From a virus, in IMG/VR virus record IMGVR_UViG_3300042526_001029, positions 1 through 28,523 of that record: a stretch of DNA of 28,523 nt; one strand, given 5' to 3'. Both the position numbers and the translations under genes were made by a program. The notes below the pieces were generated by a model that saw only the letters and a list, made by a program, of their open reading frames with translations, made no database searches and was not told the origin of the DNA. Positions 12,330 to 26,575 of this stretch are shown here, in pieces (the first letter of the stretch is position 1; every line of letters starts with the position of its first letter).

Positions 12330-12358
12330 CCGGTTGTCCTTATCATCCAATCAACCGG
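12330..12358 (+). terminator. hairpin at the tmRNA 3' end (terminator or structural)
   Basis: CCGGTTG (12330-12336) pairs with CAACCGG (12352-12358) around a 15-base loop. It is followed only by ATATGATTTT, a poor U-tract, so it may be a 3' structural element or a processing signal of the tmRNA instead of a terminator. Confidence 0.4.
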
Positions 12359-12381
12359 ATATGATTTTATCAAGGAAATAT

Positions 12382-12990
12382 ATGAAATTTGAGACAAATT
12401 TATATGAAATTGTTCGCGGAGCAATTTCAAAAGATTTACTAGTGCATTTAGATACAGAATTTGAACTAGTAAAAACTCTTCAGTATATGCAAAATAATAA
12501 GCAACAGACTGAGGAGAATAAATTTCTTTTCAATGACGAGCAAATTATGAATTCATATTCTCATTATTCTGCTCTTTGTTTTGAATCTTTATCTCTTCAA
12601 CTTAAACCCCTTTTAGAAACAGTTACAGGTAAATTGCTTAATCCTACATATACTTATGCTAGGATATACTATACTGGCGCTGAAATGGCAATACATAAGG
12701 ATAGGCCAAGTTGCGAATATTCCACTACTATCTGCATTTCAAATGATCCAGAACCATGGGAAATTTGGTTTGAGACTTTAACCGGCGAACACAAAGCAAT
12801 ATACTTGGAACCAGGTGACTTAATTGTTTATAAGGGGGATGTACTTAATCATTGGAGAACTCCCTATACCGGTACTAGACAAACACAAGCATTCCTACAC
12901 TACGTCGATAGAAAAGGTAAGTATCGGGATTACAAATATGATCACAGACCATACATTGGATATCCGGCAAACCCAAGAAAAGGTAACTAA
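12382..12990 (+). CDS. 2OG-Fe(II) oxygenase next to heme oxygenase
   Basis: 202 aa. Iron ligands are H105 and D107 (IHKDRPSCEYS) with H157 (LNHWRTPY); R166 would bind 2-oxoglutarate. ARIYYTGAEM before the HxD and LEPGDLIVY after it are standard for the fold. ATG 12382, five bases after AAGGA (12372-12376), is preferred; a longer in-frame version from TTG 12334 would start inside the hairpin of the tmRNA. It shares TAATG with the heme oxygenase gene, so the two are translationally coupled. Substrate unknown; the longer C-terminal tail (YKYDHRPYIGYP) is a feature shared with phage and cyanobacterial relatives as far as I recall. Confidence 0.82.
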   Translation: MKFETNLYEIVRGAISKDLLVHLDTEFELVKTLQYMQNNKQQTEENKFLFNDEQIMNSYSHYSALCFESLSLQLKPLLETVTGKLLNPTYTYARIYYTGAEMAIHKDRPSCEYSTTICISNDPEPWEIWFETLTGEHKAIYLEPGDLIVYKGDVLNHWRTPYTGTRQTQAFLHYVDRKGKYRDYKYDHRPYIGYPANPRKGN

Positions 12991-16479: not shown

Positions 16480-18078
16480 CTATCGTTTACCTAATCCATC
16501 AGTCCATATTCCCCAGGAGTCTCTAACATTTCTTTTAGCACTGCCTGGTATAACAGCAGATGTTGATCCTTGATTATTCCCCGTACCCATAACAGTATTA
16601 TTAGTTACAATATTTGTTGCTGCCGCAGCCTTGTCACTTACATAATCAGTTAGCTTACCCGCTTCTTCCGTTATATCTTTAAGTGTTTGTACTACCGCCG
16701 TACCTAAGTATGGTGCTAAATTTATAGTATCCGTGGGTTGTTCGCCAAAACTAATAGTTAATAAATTATTCAACATGTCCTCAATTTTCGAAGGATTTAA
16801 CGTGTCTTTTGCTATACCAATTATATTATCACCGATTGTATCCAATCCTTCGAGTGCTTTCTTTAATCCTTCGTTGAAATCTTTAAAATAATCTGTAGTA
16901 GTATCTAAAGTATCATCTAACGTATCCATTACATCTTTATCTGTAGGATCAGGTCCTTCTTGTGCCCCGCCAACTCTCCAACCTTTATTTGGTACGTATA
17001 TTGGTCCCCTAGTTCGATTAACAATTTCTTGCTCAAATTCTGGAAGCGGGTTGCCGGTTAAAGGATCATATTTTCCGCCAAACTGTTTATCCCACACTGC
17101 AGCTGCAGCAGGATCTGCTGGTCTAGGAGATGCTTGGACCATTCCTTTAAAGGTTCTCGAGTTCCGCTTCTGCATTATTTGAGCTTTTTCGCTACCTTCT
17201 TTATTCTTTTTATCGAATACGTCAGATGCCAATTCGCCATCAATAAATACCCTCTTTAATTTATTTACAAAGGATTCATCTCCTACAGATTGTTTTATAG
17301 GTTCACCGTCTGCATCAAGCTCAGCTCCTTCCGATTTTCCTTGTAGTTCTTTATATGCCTTTACGCCTATTAACGCAGCAATTATTGCAGCAATACCTAC
17401 GGGTGTTAACGCAAAACGCAGAGCACCTATAAATAAACCAGGTAAACTTTTTCCAAATTTAGTAATTAACATCGCGGCGCCTGTCAACGCTGCTCCGAAT
17501 CCTACAATTAGTGTTTTTAATACCCCTCCAATCCCTTTAGCTGCTCCTGAAAGAACACCACCTGTGCCGTCTGGGGAGTCGGATGGTCTTTCTGTTTCAC
17601 CCATTGCTTTTGCAATTGCTGATGCTAATAAAGATCTTTCCCGAGATTTTGCACCTTCTTCAGATTGATTTTTAATGAAGGCAATATCCTGAGCCTGACG
17701 CTGCGTAATTTCTTTTAATACTACTACTTCATTAATTAGTTGTTGCTGGTATTTGGATGGGCCTGTAATTTGGTTAACTATTTTTTTAAAGAACCCTGTG
17801 TTGGTTTCATCTTTGGGTCCAAGTGGAGAACCTTTTAAACCTGCACCCTTTGCACCAAACATTTTAGCTAATGATGACATTCCCCCATTTCCACCTAGGA
17901 TTTGTCTTTGATTAGTTGATGATCGTTTCAACTCATCCAATTCTTTCCGTTGTTTTAATATTGATTCGGACAATCCTTTTAATACCGAACCTTGTTTATT
18001 CAACAAAGAAGTTTGAGATTTAGCAGCAGATAATAATTCTTTATCTACAGAAGTTAATTGATTGGTTGGCAAAGCCAT
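16480..18078 (-). CDS. tape-measure / baseplate-hub protein candidate (gp29-like)
   Basis: 532 aa, close to T4 gp29 (590 aa). Residues 10-55 and 105-150 are heptad-rich coiled coil. A hydrophobic Gly/Ala helix region spans about 172-240 (GGVLKTLIVGFGAALTGAAM and on to IAAIIAALIGVKAY). The rest is polar, with Asp/Thr-rich linkers and an Asn/Thr-rich end. This layout is typical of tape-measure proteins, which set tail length and pass through the tube. It lies two bases after the gp26/gp51 frames and after a tube-like gene, the standard tail order. No sequence motif proves the assignment. Confidence 0.6.
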   Translation of the reverse strand: MALPTNQLTSVDKELLSAAKSQTSLLNKQGSVLKGLSESILKQRKELDELKRSSTNQRQILGGNGGMSSLAKMFGAKGAGLKGSPLGPKDETNTGFFKKIVNQITGPSKYQQQLINEVVVLKEITQRQAQDIAFIKNQSEEGAKSRERSLLASAIAKAMGETERPSDSPDGTGGVLSGAAKGIGGVLKTLIVGFGAALTGAAMLITKFGKSLPGLFIGALRFALTPVGIAAIIAALIGVKAYKELQGKSEGAELDADGEPIKQSVGDESFVNKLKRVFIDGELASDVFDKKNKEGSEKAQIMQKRNSRTFKGMVQASPRPADPAAAAVWDKQFGGKYDPLTGNPLPEFEQEIVNRTRGPIYVPNKGWRVGGAQEGPDPTDKDVMDTLDDTLDTTTDYFKDFNEGLKKALEGLDTIGDNIIGIAKDTLNPSKIEDMLNNLLTISFGEQPTDTINLAPYLGTAVVQTLKDITEEAGKLTDYVSDKAAAATNIVTNNTVMGTGNNQGSTSAVIPGSAKRNVRDSWGIWTDGLGKR

Positions 18079-18079
18079 T

Positions 18080-18274
18080 TTATGAATCCTTTATTGCTTT
18101 TTGTTTTAGTTTATCATTCTGTTCATCAATGTATCGAATTAATAATGTAGTATAAATTTCTCTTTCCCATGGTATCATATCTTCTATTTCAGACAGCGAA
18201 TATTTGTGATGCTGCATAAGTGAAAAATTCAGCTGATAATAATTTAAAAGACCTTCATGGGAAAGAGTTAGGCG
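18080..18274 (-). CDS. 51: gp51-like -1 frame, probably expressed by frameshift from gp26
   Basis: 64 codons, read right after a U UUU UUC site (18280-18274) near the end of gp26. It begins RLTLSHEGLLNYYQLNFSLM and continues QHHKYSLSEIEDMIPWERE. The only ATG is at codon 20 (18217), has no ribosome binding site, and would remove the first half of the LNYYQLNF region. The -1 frame is closed by TGA just upstream of the slip site, so a free start is unlikely. The -1 product would be gp26 residues 1-229 plus 64 residues, 293 aa. The compact helical tail with a Trp-Glu motif resembles T domains of tail-assembly chaperones. The gp51 name rests on position only. Confidence 0.62.
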   Translation of the reverse strand, partial: RLTLSHEGLLNYYQLNFSLMQHHKYSLSEIEDMIPWEREIYTTLLIRYIDEQNDKLKQKAIKDS

Positions 18275-18960
18275 AAAAAATTTTGCAAACCCTCCAAATC
18301 CGTTTCATTTTTAGCTCCGCATTCTGGGCAATCATGTTCAATATGCTGTACTACTTTTGGCATAGTTAAAAAGAATTGTTCCAAAATATCAAATTGAGCT
18401 TTAGAAAAGGAATTTACAAATTCTACCATTTCTTCTTTAGTATAATTATCATAATTTTCTTCTTCAGTAAATACAGATTTTATACACATACATAGTAATT
18501 CTACAACATTATCCGATTTAAAATCTTTATAGATATTCATCAATTCATCAAATCTAGGATATCGCATTTCTAAACCAATTTTATCAGTAATAAAAAGTTT
18601 AGTTGAATGGTCCGGATTCTTTTTAACTTCGGCTTTGGTTAAATCTAATTCAAATTGTATTTTTGCGTTACAATTAGTACATTCTAAAGTTAAATTTGTT
18701 TTTTCTCCAATTGACTTTGCTCGTAGGTTTAAAAATATATATTCTATATCAAAACTAGGAATCTCTTTAATCTTTAATTTATTGTATGTGCAAACATCAA
18801 CGAGATCTGTTATTACTCTTTGAATTTCTTCAGTATCAGAATCTAACGAAGTCAATAAAATTTTATATTCCTTTACTAAAAAAGGACGATATCTAATTTT
18901 TTCACCTGTTGACGGTAATATCAATTCATAGCTAGGTGTTTCTAATTTAGGCAATGCCAT
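18268..18960 (-). CDS. 26: baseplate hub protein gp26 (T4_baseplate family)
   Basis: 230 aa compared with 208 aa for T4 gp26. LETPSYELILPSTGEKIRYRPFLVKEYKIL is the family N-terminus. Two CxxC pairs (C94/C97 and C211/C214) can form a zinc ribbon bringing both halves together. It ends DLEGLQNFFA, with the slippery heptamer at its last Phe codons. It may act as the shorter tail-assembly chaperone (G-like) if frameshifting is real. It is preceded by a divergent spacer of 37 bases after the tube-like gene. Confidence 0.82.
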   Translation of the reverse strand: MALPKLETPSYELILPSTGEKIRYRPFLVKEYKILLTSLDSDTEEIQRVITDLVDVCTYNKLKIKEIPSFDIEYIFLNLRAKSIGEKTNLTLECTNCNAKIQFELDLTKAEVKKNPDHSTKLFITDKIGLEMRYPRFDELMNIYKDFKSDNVVELLCMCIKSVFTEEENYDNYTKEEMVEFVNSFSKAQFDILEQFFLTMPKVVQHIEHDCPECGAKNETDLEGLQNFFA

Positions 18961-22605: not shown

Positions 22606-23957
22606 TGCTTAACGAAATTTTACAAGCTCCAGGGCAAGTACAGATAGATAACCTAGTACTCGTTTCTTTTAATAAGGGCACATATGTTAGTTTAACTGAT
22701 TACTTAGTAGAAATTAATTTATATGAGAGTATCTTTGAAAATAGTATATCCGGAGAAATACTTCTAGCAGATAGTAGAAACTTAATACAAGAATTAGGTA
22801 TTATTGGAGAAGAATACCTATCGGTATCTTTTAGAACTACTACATTGTCTACGGAAAAAAGCATATCTAAAATGTTTAAGATATATGCTTTAAATGATAA
22901 AGAGTATGCTAAAGATGGTAGCGTTTTAATTTATAAACTAAGTTTTACTTCGGTAGAATCCTTTCAAGATATTATAAATCCAATATATCGGGCATTTAAT
23001 GGTTCTCCTAATGATATTGTTAAACTAATATTCGACGAGTATCTTTCATCTACTAGAAATATATCGATGGGTAAAAATACTACAGGCGTAGAAGAAATTA
23101 AAAGCAGTATAACTATTTTTGGAAATCCTGCAAATATTATTAATTTTGTTAGCCCAGGTTGGTCTCCAATTAAATGTATAAATTGGCTTGCAAGTAAATC
23201 CGTACCTAGCAATAATAAGGCTGCAAATTTTCTATTTTGGGAAACAACCAAAGGATTTTATTTTGGTAATATAGGCGAGTTAATACAAAAAGCAGATTCT
23301 TTATCTATAGGCACATACGATTATTCTTCTCCTAAAATAAAAAGTCCAACACAAGAAGATATTGAAAAAAATAAATTTATGTTTACAATTAGATCTATAA
23401 GCGTAAATAGCGCATTTGATCAATTGCGAAATTTAACTACAGGGTATGCTAGCAGTAGATTAGTGGATATTAATTTATATAATAAAGAATATAACCACGT
23501 AGATTATGACCATGGTGATAACTTTAATAATTACCCGCATCTTCAGACCGACATGCCTAATCCATTTTTTGATAAAGCCTCTCCGAGGAATCCATCTACA
23601 TATCTAGATGTTAACTATAGTTATCCAGCATTACATACGGGGAATTTTGAAAACTTTGATGTTAAACTAAAAGATATTTTTGGTAACAGAAGATCTAATA
23701 TGTTAGAGTTAAGAAATTTTAATATGGAAATAACTATTCCGGGCAGAACTGATATAGAAGTGGGTAGAACAATAAACATAAATTTACCTAAAGGAATCCC
23801 TGGAGATATTGCGAAACCAATGGATTATAAAGATGATGGTATATATTCGGGCAATTATTTAATAACTAGTTTATGCCATAAAATAAATTTAAAGTCCCAT
23901 TACATAATTATGGAAGTATCTAAGGACTCGTTACCTAATAGGGCGATTAAACAATGA
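22605..23957 (+). CDS. 27: baseplate hub gp27-like
   Basis: 450 aa compared with 391 in T4. It has the hub-domain layout: a beta-rich N-terminus (LYESIFENSISGEILLADSR), a middle with SPGWSPIKCINWLASKS and NKAANFLFWETTKGFYF, and a C-terminal beta segment with TIPGRTDIEVGRTININLP. It would form the trimeric hub that holds gp5. It lies directly before gp5 with an ATGA overlap, which supports the pairing; in T4 the two are apart. Confidence 0.8.
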   Translation: MLNEILQAPGQVQIDNLVLVSFNKGTYVSLTDYLVEINLYESIFENSISGEILLADSRNLIQELGIIGEEYLSVSFRTTTLSTEKSISKMFKIYALNDKEYAKDGSVLIYKLSFTSVESFQDIINPIYRAFNGSPNDIVKLIFDEYLSSTRNISMGKNTTGVEEIKSSITIFGNPANIINFVSPGWSPIKCINWLASKSVPSNNKAANFLFWETTKGFYFGNIGELIQKADSLSIGTYDYSSPKIKSPTQEDIEKNKFMFTIRSISVNSAFDQLRNLTTGYASSRLVDINLYNKEYNHVDYDHGDNFNNYPHLQTDMPNPFFDKASPRNPSTYLDVNYSYPALHTGNFENFDVKLKDIFGNRRSNMLELRNFNMEITIPGRTDIEVGRTININLPKGIPGDIAKPMDYKDDGIYSGNYLITSLCHKINLKSHYIIMEVSKDSLPNRAIKQ

Positions 23958-26575
23958 AAAATATGCATTGGTGGACAGGTGTCGTTGAAGATAGGTATGA
24001 TCCCGAAAAATTAGGTAGATGTAAGGTTAGAATATTTGGGTATCATACTGATGATATTACATTATTACCTACCTCAGATTTGCCCTGGGCTATACCTATG
24101 CAACCAATAACATCTGCAGCTACATCTGGAGTAGGCTCTTCCCCAGTTGGAATAGTTACAGGGTCATGGGTAGTTGGTTGGTTTTTAGATTCAGAGGAAG
24201 CACAGCAACCTATTATAATGGGGACCATTGCCGGAAAACCAGGTACAACTAGCAAAACTGATGCGTATAATAAAAACAAACAAATACAAACTAAAACAGT
24301 AAAAGATGCCGAAGGGAATGCACTATATGATACAAATAATAAACCAATTTCAGTTTCAAATGAATCCAGTGCAATCACAGATGAATCATTAAAACCTTTA
24401 GTATCATCAGATTTAGGTAAATTAAAAGAAGCATTAGGGAATAAATTATCTAATTCAAATTACGCTAAAATAGGCGAATTTGGAGAATTGGGCAAATACC
24501 AATTTAATTTAATGCAATTGCAGGATTTAGGTTATATACGCATTCCGCCTGCGGAGTATTTTGATCCTAATGCTGCAAATACTAATGCATATTGGACAGG
24601 TAAAGAAAACATAAAATCTAAAGATAATTTTTTATCCAATAAGGTAACGCAAGAAAATGCGATGGATAATACAATAAAATTAAATTATGAAAGAATGATT
24701 AGTACAAATAAAATTACCGAAGTTGAAGATAGATTTATTGTTGCCGGATTTTTAGCATCCGCCCATATAATAGGTGCAGAATATGCTGATAATCTACAAA
24801 GAAAAGATAACTACGGAAGAAAAGCTGAAGAATTTTTTATTATAGGTAATACCAGTATAGGCGGGGATATATTAGCCGGGTCAACAACTAAAAATACGTT
24901 TGATAATGAGATTGACAATACCTCCACTAAAGAAATACAAAATCAAAAAGCATTTGTAGACCCGGATAAAAAATATCCTAAAAAGGATTACATAGGGTAT
25001 ACAGATGTAAACAAATTAGCAATAGGCGATAAATCTCATAAGTATTTCGCAATCAAAGAAAATAAAAAAATAAAAAATGTTCAAATTGCAAATTCAAATG
25101 AAAGATGGAGCGAACCAAATTCAGCCTATAGTGCAGCATATCCATACAATCAAGTAATTGAAACTGAGGCAGGGCACGTGGTAGAGTTAGATAGTACTCC
25201 TAATGCGGAAAGAATACATCTATTTCATACGTCAGGATCTTATATTGAAATTGATATTAATGGATCCTCTGTAAGAAAAGTAATAGGCGATAATTATGAA
25301 CTAATAGATAAAAATGATTACGTATTTGTTAAAGGTGCAAAGAAAGTAACAATTGAAGGTAAAACTAGCATTTATGTAAAGGATGATGCATCTATCCAAG
25401 TTGACGGTGATACAACAATTATTAGTCATGGAAATATGACTGCAGAATGTGCAGGTGTCGTAGCAATTAATGCGAACAAAGCAGAAATTACTACAAAAGA
25501 TACTTTAAATATTGTATCAGGTGGAGCATTAAATATTATAGGTGAGAGCGTTAATATTCAATCTAAAAATAATTTAGCGCTTAGTGCAACAAATGATATT
25601 GCGATAGATGGTAAAATAAATGCAAGTATACGAGCCGGCGCAGTATTATCATTGGATGCGCCGCTCATAAAAAATAAAATGGGGGCGGCCGCTGTAGCTA
25701 ATACAAATTTTAAAGCATCTGATTTACCTAACGTAAAAGTTATTACTAAAACAGAACCAGCGGCAATGACTAGAGCATTAAGCGACGCAGAATGTATAGA
25801 TGATGCAGAAGAATATACTCCAACTGCAAGCGAATCTAAATATATTAGAGTTGCTACAGATGTGTCGGCAAGGGACACATACGCGGTTACAGATACAAAT
25901 GATTCCAAATTAAAATCTTTAAATTTTTCGGATATTCGAGCTGCAACATATTTTCCGGGTACGTTTAGATTATCTAAGAATTTTACTATTTCAGATTTAT
26001 CACCTGGTTCTTTAGGGTTGAGGCCATTAGTTTCGCAGCGCAATTTGACATCTAAAGAAATTGTTATCAATATGCGAATATTGGCTGAAAATGTATTAGA
26101 GCCCCTTTTAGCAAAATTTGGTATATTTCAAATAAACAGCGGATTAAGAAAAGCGGGAACATCCTCATCTGCTAGCGATCATGATATAGGTTGTGCAGTC
26201 GATATTCACTTTGGAACAGTTCCGTTTGAATCTTTGAGTAAATCTCAAAAGAATGTGGATCGATTAAAGCATATTAAAATTGCAGAATGGATGACACAAA
26301 ATGTCCCATTTAAACAATTATTTTTAGAATTTAAAACAGATACAATTTATTCTAGAGATATTACAAGCTTTTGGATTCATGTTGCATTACAAACTAAAGA
26401 TAATACTGTAATTCGGCCAAAAAGCGGAACAATTGCATGCGTAATGGATGGGGCATATCCAAAACTTGATTCGAATGACGAACCGATTATAGGTAAAAAT
26501 GGAAAACCAGAAACCTATATGCGATGTGCACCTGAAACTATAAATCGTTTACCTAGACCTCCCGCAGAGACATAA
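23954..26575 (+). CDS. 5: gp5-type spike: OB fold, cell-wall domain, beta-helix, M15 peptidase
   Basis: 873 aa versus 575 in T4. Residues 4-95 form the gp5 OB fold (WWTGVVEDRYDPEKLGRCKV). About 150-305 is a cell-wall-active-looking domain with GEFGELGKYQFNLMQLQDLG, in the place of the T4 lysozyme domain but with no resemblance to it; E175 or E178 before GKYQF could be catalytic. About 395-570 is the gp5C-like beta-helix of short repeats (VEGKTSIYVKDDASIQVDGD). About 665-830 is peptidase M15-like: S741, H743, G746, A748 and D750 (SxHxxGxAxD), then W807 and H809. The polypeptide could cut both glycan and peptide bonds during penetration. M4 is an alternative start. Confidence 0.85.
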   Translation: MKNMHWWTGVVEDRYDPEKLGRCKVRIFGYHTDDITLLPTSDLPWAIPMQPITSAATSGVGSSPVGIVTGSWVVGWFLDSEEAQQPIIMGTIAGKPGTTSKTDAYNKNKQIQTKTVKDAEGNALYDTNNKPISVSNESSAITDESLKPLVSSDLGKLKEALGNKLSNSNYAKIGEFGELGKYQFNLMQLQDLGYIRIPPAEYFDPNAANTNAYWTGKENIKSKDNFLSNKVTQENAMDNTIKLNYERMISTNKITEVEDRFIVAGFLASAHIIGAEYADNLQRKDNYGRKAEEFFIIGNTSIGGDILAGSTTKNTFDNEIDNTSTKEIQNQKAFVDPDKKYPKKDYIGYTDVNKLAIGDKSHKYFAIKENKKIKNVQIANSNERWSEPNSAYSAAYPYNQVIETEAGHVVELDSTPNAERIHLFHTSGSYIEIDINGSSVRKVIGDNYELIDKNDYVFVKGAKKVTIEGKTSIYVKDDASIQVDGDTTIISHGNMTAECAGVVAINANKAEITTKDTLNIVSGGALNIIGESVNIQSKNNLALSATNDIAIDGKINASIRAGAVLSLDAPLIKNKMGAAAVANTNFKASDLPNVKVITKTEPAAMTRALSDAECIDDAEEYTPTASESKYIRVATDVSARDTYAVTDTNDSKLKSLNFSDIRAATYFPGTFRLSKNFTISDLSPGSLGLRPLVSQRNLTSKEIVINMRILAENVLEPLLAKFGIFQINSGLRKAGTSSSASDHDIGCAVDIHFGTVPFESLSKSQKNVDRLKHIKIAEWMTQNVPFKQLFLEFKTDTIYSRDITSFWIHVALQTKDNTVIRPKSGTIACVMDGAYPKLDSNDEPIIGKNGKPETYMRCAPETINRLPRPPAET

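Follow-up and report, generated by a model that had tools for sequence, protein, structure and literature searches.

A putative −1 programmed frameshift joining gp26 to a gp51-like extension in a T4-like phage, with a conserved U_UUU_UUC heptamer and candidate stimulatory elements

A 2016 review (PMC5009743) states that long-tailed phages share a conserved G–T frameshift, "except T4"; it also gives the lambda model, in which G is assigned to the tape measure protein and T to the tail tube protein, and notes that the frameshifts of certain tailed phages seem to lack stimulatory signals. The tail chaperones of T4-like phages were assigned by Vladimirov, Gautam and Davidson (2022, Virology 566:9-15), in a paper whose title presents the result as suggestive of a non-frameshifting mechanism. 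This paper is cited by the authors of PRFect for T4-like phages that have a long fusion gene besides a short one, and in PMC12846349 for poly-T slippery sites in the TAC-N genes of T4-like phages. The signal itself is treated in PMC4066793, where U_UUU_UUC is reported to shift measurably in E. coli, and bacterial −1 signals are described as having structures 5–8 nt downstream and Shine-Dalgarno (SD)-like sequences 6–17 nt upstream.

The locus described here shares with the T4-like tail chaperones (gp26/gp51) the PHROG 150/PF12322 family, the TAC-N/TAC-NC logic and the poly-T sites (PMC12846349), and with lambda gpG/gpGT the position before the tape measure gene, the −1 direction and the short/long chaperone outcome, whereas its slippery sequence and protein family differ from those of lambda. 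Vandenendeviridae and Andersonviridae likewise form TAC-N and TAC-NC by a −1 shift at a T-rich site near the TAC-N 3′ end (PMC12846349); however, their motif is GTTTTT and they are other phage families. The first-pass annotation had considered such an arrangement not generally described for T4-like phages, which is out of date, and a frameshifted T4-like tail chaperone is not new, because Vladimirov et al. (2022) and PMC12846349 already cover it. In contrast to the tailed phages that seemingly shift without stimulators, the locus carries two conserved candidate stimulators, namely, an SD-like element and a long-range RNA stem. No earlier description of either was found in the searchable literature, most subscription papers lying outside it; stimulators that are conserved would depart from the picture in PMC5009743, where such shifts are described as seemingly free of stimulatory signals.

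The window, i.e., the whole stretch of 28,523 nt analyzed (IMG/VR record IMGVR_UViG_3300042526_001029), carries this locus on its minus strand. The gp26 ORF (18268..18960, 230 aa), assigned to the short form of the tail assembly chaperone (TAC-N) from PF12322, PHROG 150 and AlphaFold neighbours, ends with GAT TTG GAG GGT TTG CAA AAT TTT TTC GCC TAA. The T TTT TTC at 18280–18274 (U_UUU_UUC in the mRNA, 18274..18280) sits in the phase required for tandem slippage, and the 6-nt spacer GCC UAA (18268..18273), consisting of one Ala codon and the gp26 stop, separates it from the RNA stem. After the slip, the −1 frame would be read as FF and 64 further codons (FF RLTLSHEGLLNYYQLNFSLMQHHKYSLSEIEDMIPWEREIYTTLLIRYIDEQNDKLKQKAIKDS) up to a TAA stop at 18082–18080; the putative extension (TAC-C, "gp51-like", 18080..18280, FFRLTLSHEGLL...KDS*) thus comprises 66 codons and the stop. 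The heptamer, its phase and the 64-codon frame, all proposed in the first-pass annotation, were confirmed by reading the minus strand, and the absence of a well-placed start, also proposed there, was borne out, the earliest ATG/GTG/TTG of the −1 frame in the window being codon 22. The gap between the extension stop and the ATG (18078) of the downstream ORF, given there as two bases, is in fact one base. This 532-aa ORF (16480..18078, minus strand) is tentatively assigned as the tape measure gene by its position, together with its size, the profile match being weak (PHROG 1533, E=0.63). A short ORF with a −1 extension directly 5′ of the predicted tape measure gene is the layout of the TAC-N/TAC-NC (G/GT) pairs. 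Elsewhere in the window, the plus-strand ORF at 12334-12990 matched phrog_2954, named ferrochelatase (E=1e-50), and would, if that family is correctly named, be an auxiliary gene of an unusual kind; different segments of an 873-aa ORF at 23954-26575 (plus strand) matched several families of gp5, "baseplate hub and tail lysozyme".

Conservation of the junction was assessed in two sets of relatives that share a few contigs. The first set included 80 IMG/VR relatives of gp26 with protein identity down to 51%, and in all 78 that extended to the junction AATTTTTTC was retained. The second, more distant set was obtained by a search seeded on the extension and contained 103 usable loci, all with T6N in phase at the junction (94 U6C, 5 U7 and 4 U6A); the gp26 stop was located exactly one codon past the heptamer, 10 nt from the heptamer start, in 99 of them. 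In the genome-contig scan of this set, the sole seed pattern was the middle of the extension, so that the 23 genome-contig loci checked were unbiased as to the heptamer, and T6N was present in every one. Some of the phage-like contigs with this locus (L180-L203 of that scan) were binned in MAGs labelled as archaea, Bacteroidetes and others, which probably represents binning errors. The codons AAT TTT TTC were invariant in 40 non-redundant sequences, although synonymous codons were used elsewhere, and the A-site Phe codon was TTC in 121 of 125 Phe cases versus 22% in the rest of gp26 (non-redundant set, n=129; Fisher p = 3e-66, a value that ignores relatedness). Invariance in 78 and in 103 relatives rules out chance or sequencing error as the source of the junction. 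The alignment of junctions recommended in the first-pass annotation upheld the heptamer; the opposite outcome named there, the same frames kept without a heptamer, was not found in the window's group, but some distant relatives lacking the full heptamer do keep the extension. These are the gp26 relatives Vibrio K452, Ackermannviridae MAM1, A8-29 and ISTP3, where the −1 extension is open and only T_TTC or T_TTT tetramers are present.

The −1 frame is, judging by its codon pattern, under protein-level selection from the slip onward. The residues immediately following the slip (R, L/I, T, L, S, H and E/D) were conserved in the 40 non-redundant sequences, with most third positions variable, and the conserved stretch FFR[LI][TA]LSH, likewise with third-position variation, lies 5′ of any start codon. 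In 17 of 124 relatives, a stop closes the −1 frame 0–3 nt 5′ of the heptamer and none has a start before codon 11; therefore, the heptamer would be the only simple entry to the conserved first residues. The extension matched PHROG 634, named "baseplate hub assembly catalyst" (E=1.7e-26); a second match, to the C-terminal part of PHROG 150 (E=3.5e-7), suggests that gp26 and the extension are parts of one protein. A tblastn search with the extension yielded matches in 591 phage records. NCBIfam contained no family for gp26 or for the extension. In the S-PM2 and P-SSM2 records, the extension is given a start of its own inside the frame and annotated as a distinct gp51 gene; in those of Cronobacter S13, ACP17 and DSL-LC03, it is left unannotated, and the joined frameshift product is annotated in none of the records examined.

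Profile searches with gp26 revealed Pfam PF12322 (T4_baseplate; E=3.5e-60) and PHROG 150 (E=6e-62). T4 gp51 is an ordinary single gene of 249 aa on the strand opposite to T4 gp26, and its residues 15-244 aligned with residues 23-274 of the predicted fusion, across the junction (E=1e-12). Along the 282 positions of PHROG 150, T4 gp51 covered 13-280 and T4 gp26 covered 14-235. Consequently, T4 gp51 appears to be the natural equivalent of the frameshift product: in T4 itself, each form has its own gene, the two being placed divergently, whereas the phage of the window has one gene and a putative frameshift. Frameshifting is reportedly described, in the abstract of Vladimirov et al., as apparently conserved in several T4-like groups, with T4 using two genes. 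The −1 frame, named "gp51-like" in the first-pass annotation, is not a gene apart from gp26: T4 gp51 corresponds to the whole fusion, gp26-like domain and extension.

The gp26 structure was modelled with AlphaFold2 from 26 relatives (pLDDT 85.8). For residues 1-93 of the model, the top three VIA-align matches were 3fgx (Z 7.7), 2ob9, the HK97 tail assembly chaperone (Z 7.7), and YqbN, 3klu (Z 6.9), with the next row at 4.5; 3fgx and YqbN are presumably phage-tail-chaperone-like as well. Foldseek alone against the PDB gave weak matches (E about 1), and searching the PDB by sequence gave nothing relevant. The modelled gp26 N-terminal domain thus resembles the fold of the HK97 chaperone (gp13), which, at Z below 8, is supportive rather than proof. 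Because of this resemblance and the alignment of T4 gp51 over the fusion, the assignment of gp26 to TAC-N and of gp26 plus extension to TAC-NC is supported by model and sequence alike.

RNAalifold analysis of 25 relatives indicated that the start of the extension pairs with sequence lying about 90 nt further downstream. The corresponding stem of the window has 12 bp, all perfectly paired; it starts directly behind the gp26 stop, 6 nt past the heptamer, and is formed by the 5′ arm CUCUUUCCCAUG (18256..18267, minus strand) and the 3′ arm CAUGGGAAAGAG (18160..18171, minus strand), 18267-18256 pairing with 18171-18160 around a loop of 84 nt. The predicted pair probability was about 1.0 and the folding z versus shuffles was -3.2, whereas a shorter segment ending before the 3′ arm gave z +0.5 and no stem. 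Across 61 related sequences, 90.6% of the stem cells were paired, about a tenth being unpaired, and sliding the register destroyed the pairing; compensatory cells numbered 47 versus 15.1 in shuffles (0 of 500). The encoded amino acids by themselves fix about half of the twelve pairs, and free variation on both sides is limited to three. These free pairs (15-120, 18-117 and 24-111), each joining two synonymous third positions, ranked 2, 4 and 13 among 1770 third-position pairs after APC correction. Independent changes counted on the gp26 protein tree were concordant 2.1, 2.5 and 4.5 times, respectively, and discordant 0 times, and 0 of 120 third-position control pairs were as concordant; the independent-pairs sign tests per stem pair were underpowered, with about 2-5 informative pairs each, and are persuasive only against the control pairs. 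Folding energy compared with synonymous recoding had a mean z of -2.63 in the window's group versus -0.28 to -0.70 in gp26 control regions, the region folding more strongly than its recodings in 97% of the group.

The stem is not universal among relatives. Marine cyanophage-like relatives have no long-range stem; their region folds with z -2.10 against synonymous recoding and forms a 10-bp local hairpin (13-22 with 34-43) with nearly the same start, 93% of cells paired and covariation above 498 of 500 shuffles. A long local hairpin occurs at the same spot in S-PM2. That lineages differ in the structure but agree in its place suggests a role for its position relative to the heptamer. In the FRH group of relatives, there was no clear excess of structure (z -0.82 versus -0.53 to -1.59 in controls), and an Rfam search gave no family above threshold. 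A local hairpin just after the heptamer (15-20/25-30) was rejected as a candidate, with 73% of cells pairing in the wider set and covariation not above shuffles.

Upstream of the heptamer, the SD-like GGAGG (18291..18295, minus strand) lies within the gp26 codons L-E-G, at 18295-18291, with 10 nt between it and the heptamer. An SD-like sequence 6–17 nt upstream was found in 89 of 124 relatives versus 8.6% of in-phase control positions, and was missing from the other 35; its commonest spacing to the second heptamer base was 11 or 9. The Glu codon forming this element was GAG, not GAA, in 74 of 110 cases versus a 22.5% background (p = 2e-22, ignoring relatedness), so that selection apparently acts on the nucleotide sequence and not on the protein alone. 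The GGAGG of the window and the structure beginning after a 6-nt spacer fall within the ranges of bacterial −1 signals, i.e., 6–17 nt upstream and 5–8 nt downstream, respectively. The dnaX frameshift signal has an upstream SD-like sequence, a homopolymeric heptamer, a short spacer and a downstream stem. The same elements are found in the window; unlike in dnaX, the heptamer is U6C and not A6G, the predicted shift lengthens the product, and the stem is long-range.

The extension might instead be a stand-alone gp51, translated either from an internal start or by ribosomes that reinitiate once gp26 has terminated. It is annotated as such in many public records, among them S-PM2, P-SSM2, phi-ST2 and D527, where separate gp51 genes start near the gp26 stop. 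The first ATG/GTG/TTG is indeed codon 6 in 25 of 124 relatives, and the stand-alone start considered in the first-pass annotation as evidence against a frameshift does exist, as an ATG 5-6 codons in, in some marine and Vibrio relatives; it is lacking in many others, including the window, where initiation at codon 22 would drop a third of the conserved domain. Moreover, such initiation does not account for the conserved residues preceding any start or for the fusion of T4 gp51 to a gp26-like domain, and it leaves the strictly conserved heptamer purposeless. For the window's group it is ruled out by the selection acting from the slip and by the start-codon survey, and overall it is regarded as highly improbable. 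RNA polymerase slippage on the T6 run would, by adding one U, give an identical −1 frame protein, and PMC4066793 mentions that homopolymer runs can slip, referring to U7 and A7. However, in most relatives the run is just six T, its phase is invariably X_XXY_YYZ, and elements typical of ribosomal frameshifting (the SD-like sequence and the stem with its 6-nt spacer) occur beside it, making this source of the long form highly improbable. A −1 programmed ribosomal frameshift yielding the long chaperone form is, on the sequence evidence, very probable.

With regard to the stem, its apparent covariation might merely reflect constraint on the protein, codon bias or common descent, since the sequences are related and about half of the pairs are set by conserved amino acids; against this stand the ranks of the three free pairs, their tree-aware concordance, equalled by no control pair, and folding beyond that of synonymous recodings, which render an artefact quite improbable. 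The stem could also be real without being a stimulator, for instance concealing internal starts or protecting the mRNA, as two in-frame ATGs of the extension, codons 22 and 35, fall in its loop. This role seems unlikely, although it retains more weight than the preceding alternatives: the 5′ arm begins exactly 6 nt past the heptamer in the window's group, and other relatives have a different local hairpin there, as would be expected if position relative to the heptamer counts.

The first-pass reading, a −1 programmed frameshift producing a tail chaperone of the G/GT type, is strongly supported by the in-phase heptamer and its conservation, the coding selection and the T4 gp51 homology, with stem covariation in addition. 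Under this model, most ribosomes would halt at the gp26 UAA and produce TAC-N (230 aa), whereas some would slip at U_UUU_UUC, with two tRNA-Phe re-pairing one base back, and would read 64 more codons to give TAC-NC (293 aa). The upstream GGAGG and the downstream 12-bp stem probably make slippage more frequent. As in the lambda gpG/gpGT model, both TAC-N and TAC-NC would bind the tape measure protein of the following gene, with the TAC-C part recruiting tail tube subunits. For aquatic T4-like phages in general, a three-part cassette can be proposed, consisting of the SD-like sequence, U_UUU_UUC and a covarying stem directly behind the gp26 stop, which spans a long range in the window's group and gives way to local hairpins in marine relatives; such a cassette would imply a tuned shift rate, probably higher than that of lambda, and may be undescribed, a proposal for which the chances appear evenly balanced.

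In hundreds of genomes of cyanophages and other T4-like phages, the locus usually annotated as the pair "gp26" and "gp51" (or as gp26 with a missing gp51) is best interpreted as a single frameshifted chaperone gene. Should the stem and the SD-like element indeed stimulate the shift, tail chaperone frameshifting would not always be the bare low-level event reported for lambda, and the same protein ratio could be compared between the lineages using a frameshift, i.e., many T4-like groups, and T4 with its two genes.
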